From: Syntrophomonadaceae bacterium | GTDB taxonomy: Bacteria; Bacillota; Dethiobacteria; DTU022; UBA8154 | Assembly: GCA_007135125.1 (NCBI GenBank) | Contig: SLJK01000080.1 | Coordinates: 1-38,529, forward strand | DNA length: 38,529 nt | Direction of reading: 5' to 3' | Part shown: in pieces, positions 10,156 to 20,345 of the stretch | Layout: each line of letters opens with the position of its first letter | Numbering within the stretch: position 1 is the first letter of the stretch | The notes under the pieces: generated by a model | The model's input: only the letters and a program-made list of their open reading frames with translations | The model's database searches: none | What the model was told of the DNA's origin: nothing | Made by a program: the position numbers and the translations under genes

Positions 10156-11121
10156 TCAGGTGCGCAACCTGTATCTTCCATAACCAAGTTCTGCCTTGTG
10201 CCCGAGGTGTATAAATTCGCCCAGTTTCAAAAATGGCAGGTAACCTTCCTTATTATCACCTGTATAATCAACTTTTCCCAACAGCCCCGGTAAGTTATCT
10301 GCGGTATTCTTGTTAAGTTTATCAGCGTTTGAAAAAGTAACCTGGTTCTTTTTTATCTGGACTTTCTTTGCTTTTTCGATAACTTCATGGTAGCTGATCT
10401 CCAGCTCCAGCTCCAAGAAATCATGATGAAAATAATATATCATCTGCACCCTTTTTAATAATTCTCTTAAGATGAGAAAAAAACGGGGATCATGCAAATA
10501 CTCATCTTCTTCCGCTATTAAAGCCGGAGCAAGAAAAAGGAGGGAAAAACTTTTGCTGGTAGAGTTTTCTCTTGCCCAGTCCTCTACCTGGTTCCCTTTT
10601 ATATATACCGCTGTCTTCGAAATATTATCAGCGCCATCTCCATAAATTAACTGCTGTTCTCCTGTAAAAGGATTTTCTGCCAATACGCTCTTTAAATCCA
10701 ACTTTCCTTTCCCCACAGTCAGGCCTTTTTGAACAAATTGCTGAAAAATGCGTATAAGCAGCTCAGCATATTCGGTCCCTTTACCCAATAGAACCAGGTT
10801 AAATGTAATTTTTTCACCTTTAAAATAGTCAGTTTTTTTCTCTAAAGGTGGCTTCCAAACGAAAGGCGCCGGCACCGAACCATAGCGGCGAAATCCCTGG
10901 GAAGTTGAGGCTAAATTTTCATACATTAAAGCATAGGCGCAGTGGAACTTAAGAAGGCAATCTCCACACTCATTTTTTTGCATTTTGCAGGCATGGCGGT
11001 GGAGTATTTCCTTGAATTCTTTTTGAAAAAATAAACTTACTTTATTTGAAGGAAGCACTGCTCCTTCATCCTCGGCCTCCACAATAAAACTGTAATAAGC
11101 CATCTTGAAGTCCTTGAACAC
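10156..11121 (-). CDS. cas6: CRISPR-associated Cas6-like RAMP endoribonuclease (orphan)
   Basis: Cys-rich N-terminal motif CGDCLLKFHCAYALMYE, PAPFVWKPP, glycine-rich C-terminus FLKLGEFIHLGHKAELGYGRYRL typical of the Cas6/RAMP superfamily. GTG start with AAGGAG SD. Confidence 0.8.
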   Translation of the reverse strand: MFKDFKMAYYSFIVEAEDEGAVLPSNKVSLFFQKEFKEILHRHACKMQKNECGDCLLKFHCAYALMYENLASTSQGFRRYGSVPAPFVWKPPLEKKTDYFKGEKITFNLVLLGKGTEYAELLIRIFQQFVQKGLTVGKGKLDLKSVLAENPFTGEQQLIYGDGADNISKTAVYIKGNQVEDWARENSTSKSFSLLFLAPALIAEEDEYLHDPRFFLILRELLKRVQMIYYFHHDFLELELEISYHEVIEKAKKVQIKKNQVTFSNADKLNKNTADNLPGLLGKVDYTGDNKEGYLPFLKLGEFIHLGHKAELGYGRYRLRT

Positions 11122-11191: not shown

Positions 11192-11220
11192 TTGTCATAT
11201 TTATTCTATTATGATAGAAT
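11192..11220 (+). promoter_or_regulatory. Predicted promoter (TTGTCA-17-TAGAAT) overlapped by palindrome TATTCTAT-TATG-ATAGAATA
   Basis: -35 TTGTCA 11192-11197, -10 TAGAAT 11215-11220; perfect 8-bp-arm inverted repeat 11202-11221 covers the -10. Confidence 0.6.
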
Positions 11221-11242: not shown

Positions 11243-11401
11243 ATGAAAAACGTACAGATAAACATATCTATACCAGCCGCCTGGAAGGACATTTTAGAAA
11301 ACATGGCCCGAATATATTCTGTCGAAGAAGAAAAAACTCTCACTTACCTGGACCTGATCCGCAGAGCCATAAAGGAGAAGTATCAGTTAGATGATGAGTA
11401 A
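11243..11401 (+). CDS. Small ribbon-helix-helix-like DNA-binding protein
   Basis: ATG 11243 preceded by GGGGGT SD; MKNVQINISIPAAWKDILENMARIYSVEEEKTLTYLDLIRRAIKEKYQLDDE has a beta-strand/IP/helix/helix RHH-like pattern. Confidence 0.6.
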   Translation: MKNVQINISIPAAWKDILENMARIYSVEEEKTLTYLDLIRRAIKEKYQLDDE

Positions 11402-11798
11402 AAACTTCCATGTGGCAAAGGATTACATCTATTCCCTGCGCTATCACCTGGTATGGCGTCCTCGCTTCAACATTGATGTTTTGAAAAACGGAAAGAATAT
11501 TATTGAAAAGACGCTAAAAGGTGTTTGCCGGCAGTACGGATATGAGGTGCTTTATGTAGATATCAAGCAGGACTATATTCACCTTTTCTTGTCTACGGGT
11601 CCCACTGTAGCTCCGGCAGATGCTGTACGGGTATTGAAAAGCGTTACGGCAGCTTTTTTATTAAAGTACTTTCCCCAGCTGAAAGTTTTTTATGGTCTAT
11701 ATGGCTCCCTCTGGGAAAAGGACTGCTTACTAAGCACTACTTTTCAACTCGAGACGGAAACAATCCGCAAATATACAACACAAAAGAAAGGAAGGTGA
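11391..11798 (+). CDS. IS200/IS605 TnpA-like (Y1 HUH) protein with altered HUH motif
   Basis: LRYHLVWRPRFNIDVL, CRQYGYEVLYVDIKQDYIHLFLS, VLKSVTAAFLLKYFP, IRKYTTQ match the TnpA layout, but the H-x-H is Y-I-H (Tyr62, His64). Overlaps the RHH-like ORF by 11 bp. Confidence 0.75.
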   Translation: MMSKNFHVAKDYIYSLRYHLVWRPRFNIDVLKNGKNIIEKTLKGVCRQYGYEVLYVDIKQDYIHLFLSTGPTVAPADAVRVLKSVTAAFLLKYFPQLKVFYGLYGSLWEKDCLLSTTFQLETETIRKYTTQKKGR

Positions 11799-11825
11799 AG
11801 CCCGCCTTATTGCGGGTATAAATTT
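11785..11825 (+). promoter_or_regulatory. SD AGAAAGGAAGGTGA, hairpin CCCGC-CTTATT-GCGGG, 9 nt, then clpB ATG
   Basis: AGAAAGGAAGGTG aag CCCGCCTTATTGCGGG tataaattt ATG; no SD-like sequence between hairpin and ATG. Confidence 0.65.
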
Positions 11826-14435
11826 ATGGATATTAATCAATTTACCAATAAAGCAAAGGAAGCTATAGGAGCTGCTCAAAACTTGGCAGCGCGCTATCAC
11901 CACCAGCAGGTAGATTGCGAACATCTCCTGCTTGCACTCCTGGAACAGGAAGAGGGACTGGCTGCAAAACTTATTGAAAAAACCGGGTTAAACACCAAAA
12001 AAATTAAAGACACCCTGCAGGCTTACCTGAACAGGCAGCCAAAAGTATATTCGGGCGAGGGCTATGCTGAACAAATTTACATTAGCCCACGTCTGGGAAG
12101 GGTGCTGGAACACGCCAAAGAGGAATCGGCAACGTTTAAAGATGAATTTATTGGTGTAGAGCACCTGCTTCTATCCCTGCTGGAGGTTGACAAGGGAGAA
12201 TCAACTAAAATACTGAAAGATGCAGGTTTAAACAGAAACGCTCTTCTGCAAGCACTGCAAACTGTTAGAGGACACCAAAGGGTAACCAGCGCCGATCCGG
12301 AAGGCACATACGAAGCATTAACTAAGTATGGACGAGATCTAACAGAAATGGCTGCAGACGGGAAACTGGACCCCGTAATTGGCAGGGACGACGAGGTTCG
12401 TCGTGTGATACAGGTACTTTCCAGGAGGACCAAGAACAATCCTGTTCTAATAGGTGAACCCGGGGTAGGAAAAACTGCTGTCGCTGAAGGACTTGCCCAG
12501 CGAATAACCAAAAACGATGTTCCGGAAGGCCTAAAAAATAAACGCATTTTCGCCCTGGATCTCGGTGCTCTGCTTGCAGGAGCCAAGTTCAGAGGGGAAT
12601 TTGAAGAAAGGCTTAAAGCTGTACTCAAAGAGATACAGGATTCCAACGGGGAAATTTTGCTCTTTATTGATGAGCTGCATACGGTTGTAGGGGCCGGGGC
12701 TGCAGAAGGAGCTATGGACGCCAGCAATCTCCTTAAGCCCATGCTGGCCAGGGGAGAGCTTCACTGCATTGGTGCTACCACCCTGGCGGAATATCGCAAA
12801 CATATTGAAAAAGATGCTGCCCTGGAACGCCGCTTTCAGCCCGTAGTAATTGATGAGCCGGATACCGCCGACTCTATCTCCATCCTTCGCGGCTTAAAAG
12901 AACGTTACGAAGTTCACCACGGGGTACGCATTAAGGACTCGGCCCTGGTAGCCGCCGTCACATTGAGTCAGAGATACATCAGTGACCGCTTCCTGCCGGA
13001 TAAAGCGATCGACCTGGTAGATGAAGCTGCCGCCATGATAAGGGCCGAAATCGACAGCATGCCCAGCGAATTGGATGAAGTAACCAGGCGTATCATGCAG
13101 CTGGAGATAGAAAAAGAGGCCCTTAAGCTGGAAACCGATGAGGGTTCTGCTAAACGCCTGGATGAAGTTGAAAAAGAACTGACCAGACTTAAAGAAGAAG
13201 CAGAACAGCTAAAAAACCGGTGGGAAGAAGAAAAAGACGCTATCTCCCAACTCCGAAAAATTAGGGAAGAAATTGAAGAAACCAAGTTGGAGATGGAAAA
13301 GGCGGAACAAAACTACGATCTTAATCGATTGGCAGAATTAAAATATGGCAAAATGGCCCAATTGAACGAGCAGCTGAAAGAGGAAGAAGAAAAGTTACAA
13401 CAACAGCACAGCAGCGCACGCCTCTTAAAAGAAGAAGTGGACGAAGAAGATATCGCTACCGTTGTAAGCCGCTGGACAGGGATTCCCGTAAGCAAGCTTA
13501 TGGAAGGGGAAAAACAAAAAATCCTGCAGTTGGAAGATAGGCTGCATGATAGGGTGGTAGGTCAAAACGAAGCAGTTACCGCAGTTAGCGAAGCTGTGTT
13601 AAGAGCACGCTCCGGGGTTAAGGACCCCAATCGTCCTGTGGGCTCCTTTATTTTTCTTGGTCCCACCGGCGTAGGAAAAACCGAGTTGGCACGATCACTG
13701 GCTTTTGTTCTTTTTGATGACGAAAATGCCATGGTTCGTCTTGATATGTCGGAATACATGGAAAAACACTCTGTAGCACGACTTATAGGAGCACCTCCAG
13801 GTTATGTAGGGTATGAAGAAGGAGGACAGTTAACCAACGCCATACGCAGAAAACCTTTTTCCGTTATACTGTTTGACGAAATAGAAAAAGCGCACCAGGA
13901 CGTATTCAATGCCCTCCTACAAATACTTGATGACGGGCGTTTAACTGATTCCCAGGGACGGACGGTTGACTTTCGGAACACTGTATTAATTATGACTTCT
14001 AACCTGGGGAGCGAAATAATAATGGAAGCCGATATGGAGAACGAAGAATCCTTTAGCAAAGCAAAGGAACAGATTTTAAACCGGCTGCGTTCCTTTTTCA
14101 GGCCGGAATTCTTAAACAGGGTAGACGAAATAGTAACCTTCCACCCACTCGGCATGGAACACCTGCGGAAAATTGTCAAAATCCAGGCTGGTTTGCTGCA
14201 GCATAGACTTCAGGAACAGAATATCAAGCTTGAACTAACCGCAGAAGCAGAGGAATATTTGGCCGCTGTTGGGTATGATCCCATATATGGAGCCAGACCC
14301 CTGAAACGAACCATACAGAAAGAACTGGAGACCCAGCTCGCCAAACAACTTCTGGGCGGGACATTCAAAACGGGGGACAAGATAATCGTAGACAGTAAAG
14401 ATGAGGGTCTTGTCTTCCGGGTTGCAGAAGAATAA
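11826..14435 (+). CDS. clpB: ATP-dependent chaperone ClpB
   Basis: Clp_N repeats, [18 protein letters not shown] and [15 protein letters not shown] Walker A motifs, long coiled-coil M domain, [19 protein letters not shown]. Confidence 0.98.
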
Positions 14436-18905: not shown

Positions 18906-20345
18906 TTAAATATCAAGCAAACCTTCATACTGGTTTTTTATCTGTTGTATTAGCTCCTCTTCTACAAAGTGGTCGTGCTCTTCTTCCATCATTTTTTGGG
19001 CAATTTCGTCGGCCGTCGTCCAGCTGTCTTTTCCGCCTGCCGCTTTCCAGGCATGATAACTGCGTCTGTCGCTAACCCTGGGGGAAAAACTTTCTGAACG
19101 CATATATTTAACCGTATGTGCTTCTCCCAGGAAATTCCCTCCGGGACCCACGGCAGATATTGTTTTAACGGCCATACTTTCTTCATTAACTTCCACACCG
19201 CGCAGGGCCCTTAAGCATCCTCCGATAATATCGTTGTCTATTACATACTGGGCAAAAGAAGCCGTCATAGCACCTTCCAGCAGCCCAGCCGCTTCATGAA
19301 TAAAATTTCCTCCTGCCAACGCTGCCAAAAGGCAGGTTGTTGCACTTTCGTAAGCGGCCTGTGCATCTGGAATTTTTGAATCTGTTGTTCCCACCGTGAT
19401 ATAGCTGGGTACCCGATAATAATTAGCCATTTGGGAAATAGCCGCATTCATAAGCCCTGACTCTACAGTTCCCATCAAGAAAGACATAGTTCTAAGATCC
19501 ATGGTTGAAGGAACTGCGCTGTAGAGAATGGGCGTTCCAGGGTTGGTCAGCTGGGCCAAAATAACGCCCATTAGAGCTTCAGCATTCTGCTGAACCAGAG
19601 TTCCTGCAAGGGTTATAGGTGCTGTGGCTCCCGCTGTAGGTGCTGTGGAAGTGGCCAGGGGAAGGCCCATGGAAGCAACCTCCATCAGCATCTCTGCATA
19701 AAGATCGTCAATTTTTAAAGGCGAAATAATGCTGGTGATAAAGCCAACAAAAGGCCTCTTTTTCAATTGCTCCTCGCCCCCGGCAATAGTGGCGGCGATC
19801 TCCACTACCTGCCTGAGGCCTTCTACCGTATATACACCACCCATAACAGGCTTAGAACTGTGTGTCAAAGCAGGAAAAAAGCGGTTAATATCAATTTTAT
19901 CAGGAGGTGCATCATGAGGATAGACCGGGACAATTAAGAAATCAATATTTTCCAGCCTTTCTACCAGGGCTGCGATAACAGCAATATCCTCTGCAGTGGA
20001 TTTGCGTTTGCTGCGGTCCAGATCCAAAATGTTTAACGCTGTCCCTCCGGTCCCAAAATGGACCCTGGTCCCTCCCAGGATAATATCTTTACTCTTTTCC
20101 TTGCCATGAAAAGTAAACTCGCTGGGGGCTTGCTTAATGCACCTGGAAACAAGATCGCGAGGAATAAAAACTCTGTTGCCGTCAACATTGGCACCGTTTG
20201 TTTTCAGCAACTCCAGGGCAGGTGGATAGCTCACCTGAAAACCCACATCTTCCAGGACTTGCATAGTTGATTCATGGATCTGTTTTATCTCTGCTTCCCC
20301 AAAAACTTTATAATATCCTCCATAGTACACCCTTTTTTCGGGCAT
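18906..20345 (-). CDS. MttB-superfamily trimethylamine/glycine betaine methyltransferase homolog without in-frame amber
   Basis: LEDVGFQVSYPPALELLKTNGANVDGNRVFIP, FGTGGTALNILDL, STAPTAGATAPITLAGTLVQQNAEALMGVILAQL; uninterrupted 479-aa ORF. Confidence 0.9.
   Translation of the reverse strand: MPEKRVYYGGYYKVFGEAEIKQIHESTMQVLEDVGFQVSYPPALELLKTNGANVDGNRVFIPRDLVSRCIKQAPSEFTFHGKEKSKDIILGGTRVHFGTGGTALNILDLDRSKRKSTAEDIAVIAALVERLENIDFLIVPVYPHDAPPDKIDINRFFPALTHSSKPVMGGVYTVEGLRQVVEIAATIAGGEEQLKKRPFVGFITSIISPLKIDDLYAEMLMEVASMGLPLATSTAPTAGATAPITLAGTLVQQNAEALMGVILAQLTNPGTPILYSAVPSTMDLRTMSFLMGTVESGLMNAAISQMANYYRVPSYITVGTTDSKIPDAQAAYESATTCLLAALAGGNFIHEAAGLLEGAMTASFAQYVIDNDIIGGCLRALRGVEVNEESMAVKTISAVGPGGNFLGEAHTVKYMRSESFSPRVSDRRSYHAWKAAGGKDSWTTADEIAQKMMEEEHDHFVEEELIQQIKNQYEGLLDI

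Follow-up and report, generated by a model that had tools for sequence, protein, structure and literature searches.

Why should a gene that resembles the transposase of an IS200/IS605 element keep an intact frame when its catalytic motif has changed? This question is raised by a pair of overlapping genes in the 38,529-nucleotide stretch of DNA analysed here (the window), in which an RHH-like gene (11243-11401), a TnpA-like gene (11391-11798) and clpB (11826-14435, identified by Pfam) follow one another on the + strand, the clpB start lying 27 bp downstream of the TnpA-like gene end. From the letters alone, a first-pass annotation had read the pair as a candidate domesticated module. The 11-bp overlap that it described holds when counted from the first ATG (8 bp from the second), and its remarks on a missing tnpB and unclear IS200 ends were borne out, as no tnpB was present near the pair and no element end was recognised.

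By sequence and predicted fold, the 135-aa TnpA-like protein is unmistakably an IS200/IS605-type TnpA by ancestry. It scored 69.4 bits against Pfam Y1_Tnp (cut-off 23) and 82.3 bits against the NCBIfam IS200/IS605 transposase model (cut-off 55), and its relatives in the PDB were 2ec2 and ISDra2. Its AlphaFold2 model (pLDDT 86.5, pTM 0.79) had a Y1 HUH fold and was matched by Foldseek to 2ec2, ISDra2 and IS608 TnpA with E values of ~1e-10 to 1e-9, so that the structural comparison with IS608 TnpA proposed on the first pass gave a match. No second Y1 transposase was found in the genome of the window.

We confirmed that codon 62 (tat, 11574-11576) encodes Tyr within D-Y-I-H-L, in place of the first HUH His, and that the catalytic Tyr128 (11772-11774) is present. 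The Y---Q motif was also broken, reading Y-T-T-Q-K from Tyr128 to Lys132 (11772-11786) with Gln at +3 and Lys at +4. In the signature of class 1 TnpA proteins this Gln is a metal ligand and is essential in IS608 (PMC6006769). With Tyr62 for the first HUH His and Lys132 at the Gln position, the protein has probably lost two of its three metal ligands. The window protein thus has neither an HUH motif with both His nor a Y---Q motif, as an active transposase would, and from the loss of metal-ligand residues we infer that it is unable to cut DNA. The suggestion that it might be RAYT-like fits poorly, as the Y---NP signature was missing and RAYT proteins retain their catalytic residues; the NCBIfam RAYT model appeared only as a secondary match, in 5 of 14 rows.

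In a search of 100 related genomes, mostly draft MAGs, seven genomes of the same family ranked first (36-43% identity over the matched part). Together with the window and a further MAG contig (L046), they gave nine pair loci in three genera (g1, g4 and g8), all with the order RHH, TnpA-like, clpB; in the seven family genomes the first two genes overlap or nearly abut. The proposed search for homologous pairs was thus productive, but the Y-x-H state was not what the clade conserves, which is F-x-H or F-x-Y instead. The first HUH His was missing from all nine proteins, replaced by Tyr in the window and by Phe in the eight others; in two of them (L032 and L034) the second HUH His was also replaced, by Tyr, and the catalytic Tyr was missing from every copy except that of the window (8/9). 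An alignment of eight copies contained 29 invariant columns at 33-41% identity, with Ile63 the sole one inside the old HUH motif. L046 itself is filed as a Micrarchaeota MAG contig, carries the unit together with neighbours of this bacterial family and is probably misbinned.

The pair was not present in genera g2, g5 and g10. Pair-less genomes of the family have an empty arrangement in which a Cas6-like or deacetylase-like gene faces clpB, with gaps of ~178-249 bp in four of them. In the window, the Cas6-like gene (10156-11121, - strand; Pfam CRISPR_Cas6, 44.9 bits) flanks the unit, and in relatives it marks the empty site. As a separate observation, it stands without CRISPR-type direct repeats in the window and adjoins clpB in several relatives.

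In a TnpA tree, the dead copies formed one group (support 91/93, 90% of bootstraps) with Halanaerobial copies as the nearest, and the window copy sat on a long branch (1.36). A custom-written pairwise codon model gave dN/dS of 0.085-0.18 among dead TnpA copies within g4 and g8 (unsaturated dS only), with likelihood-ratio statistics of 42 to 80 against omega = 1, so that this check, also proposed on the first pass, placed the dead copies far below 1. The corresponding within-genus values were 0.02-0.11 for RHH and 0.03-0.07 for clpB. Because the compared copies were already dead, this constraint is not for transposition. Pairs involving the window copy had saturated dS; for that lineage, the unbroken frame and the conserved residues lead us to infer purifying selection as well. 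The TnpA-like gene stays in one place, is inherited vertically and is conserved by purifying selection although it does not move, as expected of a domesticated transposase gene, and is very probably a domesticated non-catalytic gene. Synteny, residue loss, the clade and selection together lend the domesticated-module reading more support than the sequence alone had allowed.

As the main rival to this reading, selection might instead act on the RHH gene and promoter only, leaving tnpA as a slowly decaying passenger whose frame is kept open by translational coupling or by polarity on clpB. The much faster divergence of TnpA relative to RHH (75-83% identity for the latter), its variable C-terminus and the long window branch would fit such a passenger. 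Polarity, however, guards a frame and not its amino acids, yet omega was low and invariant columns were numerous, and tnpA was kept wherever RHH was kept among the domesticated loci. We therefore regard a passenger as unlikely and retain the domesticated gene as our reading of tnpA.

The source of the dead pair is visible in a rare IS605-type RHH-tnpA-tnpB element found in Halanaerobia and elsewhere. A scan of genome contigs with the window TnpA alone returned nothing, and it took an RHH profile to recover RHH-tnpA-tnpB units, which came from Natroniella and Halanaerobacter. In these, TnpA has both its HxH and its Tyr intact, and TnpB is of the standard kind. Additional, partly broken copies occur in Halonatronum and some MAGs. 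Two copies in Natroniella acetigena have left ends 98.3% identical over 233 bp and different flanks, so that the element must have transposed. In several mobile copies, the left end forms a hairpin with a GAAAACC...TTGC...GATGAA core, which was found in 0/9 domesticated loci using a strict pattern that misses some mobile copies too. The domesticated loci have no tnpB, and they retain the element promoter and its overlapping palindrome. Intact HxH together with transposon ends, which on the first pass would have made the gene simply a decayed IS200 copy, occurred in this progenitor element in other lineages only and not in the nearest relatives.

RHH-bearing IS605-type elements with a conserved left-end hairpin were located at L050, L051, L057, L062, L049, L060, L061 and L063. 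At two other loci (L052:1555-3240 and L092:3997-5607), RHH-tnpA units are followed by proteins of 536-561 aa with 39% mutual identity. These had no Pfam match, one had a weak TnpB match, and they are possibly a divergent TnpB-like nuclease.

Two or three independent captures at one hot spot 5' of clpB, followed by parallel degradation, would also place the pair where it is found. In the clpB tree, the pair-bearing clpB genes formed no resolved clade and did not separate single from multiple capture, and mobile elements of the IS605 kind have short, sequence-specific targets. The TnpA copies, however, are monophyletic relative to the sampled mobile copies, and all have lost the same His, which makes repeated capture decidedly unlikely.

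Very improbable is an ordinary, recently decayed IS200/IS605 copy without host function. The His-to-Tyr change is a single-step codon change, and a mobile-type tnpA of Halonatronum saccharophilum (L049:5155-5562), beside a broken tnpB, likewise reads D-Y-I-H for D-H-I-H, a change apparently independent of that in the window. Against recent decay stand the same site and gene order in three genera, the monophyly of the copies, and frames that are still open at saturated synonymous divergence with omega far below 1. Of the two fates that the first-pass annotation had left side by side, retention thus stood, on nine syntenic loci and low dN/dS, and recent inactivation did not. Equally improbable is a toxin-antitoxin-type pair of an overlapping RHH gene and a small protein with a TnpA-like fold, which resembles RHH antitoxin operons in architecture only (order, sizes and overlap), whereas the pair descends from a mobile RHH-tnpA-tnpB element of ordinary type, the small protein has the fold of TnpA and clpB comes next in 9/9 loci.

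We turn from the domesticated tnpA to its partner, a 52-aa protein whose RHH-like identity is plausible though weak. Its match to Pfam RHH_1 (E=0.032) was under the cut-off, the best family member reached E=0.0024 without attaining the curated threshold, the match to ORF56 in the PDB had E=0.013, and Foldseek found no fold match for the monomer model. The protein is 75-83% identical across three genera, as given above, and 69-81% identical to the mobile-element copies. Q5 and N7 were invariant and S9 nearly invariant across mobile and domesticated proteins; should it be a genuine RHH protein, they would lie on the DNA-contacting strand. In a phylum-wide sample of 399 genomes, relatives of the RHH-like protein were confined to the family. 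None was found on plasmids, phage records yielded one gut contig, carrying a mobile-type unit, and IMG/VR yielded one relative.

A promoter scan identified a promoter-like site 5' of the RHH-like gene (11192-11220, + strand), comprising a -35 box TTGTCA, a 17-bp spacer, a -10 box TAGAAT and an extended -10 TG, with equivalents in all nine pair loci and in the mobile elements. The palindrome TTCTATTATGATAGAA (11204-11219, strandless) overlaps the -10 box and is a candidate RHH operator, also present in the mobile elements. Upstream of RHH, mobile and domesticated loci share a block that combines the -35, the palindrome TCTA(Y)TATRRTAGA and the extended -10, and the left half of the palindrome is conserved though it lies outside any promoter consensus. 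We consider it likely that the RHH-like protein represses its own gene. Two broader ideas were rejected: the 14-bp palindrome showed no genome-wide excess that would suggest a wider RHH regulon (18/12 against 13/15 for the control), and a similar palindrome at a csp promoter lacked conservation among the other genomes with the pair, so that an extended -10 is the better explanation for it.

In a simple consensus scan, all nine loci had a sigma-A-type promoter at 51-67 bp 5' of the RHH gene, and in eight of them the 200 bp preceding clpB contained none; no terminator was found between tnpA and clpB in the window. Because of this distribution of consensus matches, the element's promoter appears to have replaced the native clpB promoter, and clpB is probably transcribed mainly from the cassette promoter. 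A sigma-A promoter near clpB was present in three empty-site g2 genomes and at three more distant clpB genes, those of G006, G013 and G016. These last three (L087, L086 and L089, respectively), ~62-63% identical to that of the window, also carry upstream CtsR-type boxes (GGTCAGTAATGGTCA) that the family's other clpB genes lack. CtsR-type clp control resembles the present arrangement in having a small DNA-binding regulator at a clp gene; CtsR, however, is encoded elsewhere in the genome of the window, and CtsR control of the window clpB was discarded as no CtsR-type box was found there.

The clpB leader (11790-11828) contains a G+C-rich hairpin between the Shine-Dalgarno sequence and the clpB start codon, with a hairpin in the same place at L028-L034, L046, L082-L085 and L088. 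The stems vary (CCTGG/CCAGG, CTCGGC/GCCGAG, CCCGC/GCGGG and CCTTGTTC/GAACAAGG) with pairing mostly preserved, and automatic consensus folding of the leader alignment returned no pairs because the stems misalign. The hairpin may determine the effective spacing and contribute to control by temperature. It is not a product of the pair, since pair-less genomes have it too.

Taking the locus as a whole, we lean towards the explanation that an immobilised autoregulatory cassette of a transposon now drives clpB. An IS605-type RHH/tnpA/tnpB element would have been captured, in a forebear of some of the family's members, at the site between clpB and the Cas6-like or deacetylase-like genes, and would then have lost its left-end hairpin and tnpB. 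TnpA would have lost its metal site and, in g4 and g8, the catalytic Tyr as well, while the promoter-RHH-tnpA cassette was presumably retained as a control unit 5' of clpB. An RHH dimer may bind the palindrome that overlaps the -10 box and so repress the cassette and the downstream clpB, a part of the reading for which the sequence gives good support. In the least certain step, the dead TnpA, made from the overlapping frame, might bind RHH itself or nucleic acid in hairpin or single-stranded form, and thereby modulate repression. Its relatives bind DNA hairpins as dimers, as in the IS608 complexes of the PDB, and because the fold is preserved away from the active site, retained binding is a natural guess. 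By this analogy, a co-regulator role for TnpA, through nucleic acid or RHH, is put forward tentatively. More speculative still is the idea that the entire circuit by which the transposon regulates itself (promoter, operator, RHH repressor and TnpA as non-catalytic sensor or co-regulator) replaced the native promoter of a stress-chaperone gene, making this TnpA the counterpart of TldR; if true, ClpB levels would be set by the dead TnpA in response to RHH occupancy or to DNA or RNA in single-stranded or hairpin form.

Exaptation of IS605 nucleases, from TnpB to Cas12 and TldR, is well known. TldR is reportedly an exapted TnpB that has lost its nuclease residues, uses a guide RNA and is tied to host-gene control. 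To our knowledge, Y1 TnpA exaptation is known only as RAYT, which retains its chemistry. The exaptation of IS605 proteins has been reviewed (PMC8987985), with TldR described as RNA-guided transcription factors (PMC13418256) and RAYT as an exaptation from TnpA (PMC8266576). The components seen here, a Y1 TnpA, an RHH-like repressor and ClpB, are likewise known. The dead copies resemble class 1 Y1 HUH TnpA of IS608 and ISDra2 (PMC6006769) in sequence family, size and predicted fold, but differ in the lost first HUH His, Gln ligand and, in 8/9, Tyr; unlike IS200/IS605 elements, the pair is single-copy and in a fixed place, without recognised ends or tnpB. With TnpA-REP/RAYT (PMC8266576) it shares a host-kept, single-copy and vertically inherited Y1 TnpA, but in RAYTs the HUH motif and the Tyr (Y---NP) are intact and REP sequences are the partners, whereas here catalytic residues are lost and the gene lies in an RHH-clpB operon. 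TldR similarly is an IS605 protein without nuclease residues linked to host-gene control, but it derives from TnpB and uses a guide RNA, in contrast to the TnpA and RHH protein of the pair; neither TnpB nor a guide RNA was seen here.

In a literature search covering few subscription journals, nothing was found on a conserved Y1 TnpA without catalytic function, on IS605 elements that carry an RHH gene or on a transposon cassette before clpB. A conserved non-catalytic TnpA with the element's own regulator and promoter at clpB would show whole-cassette capture of a transposon. The dead TnpA offers a naturally separated TnpA binding function for study, and the pair exposes a little-noticed IS605 branch bearing an RHH-like gene.

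Elsewhere in the window, an MttB-family methyltransferase gene (18906-20345, - strand) reads through with no stop and contains an Rfam PYLIS_3 match at 19289-19388; it is probably a non-pyrrolysine homologue.
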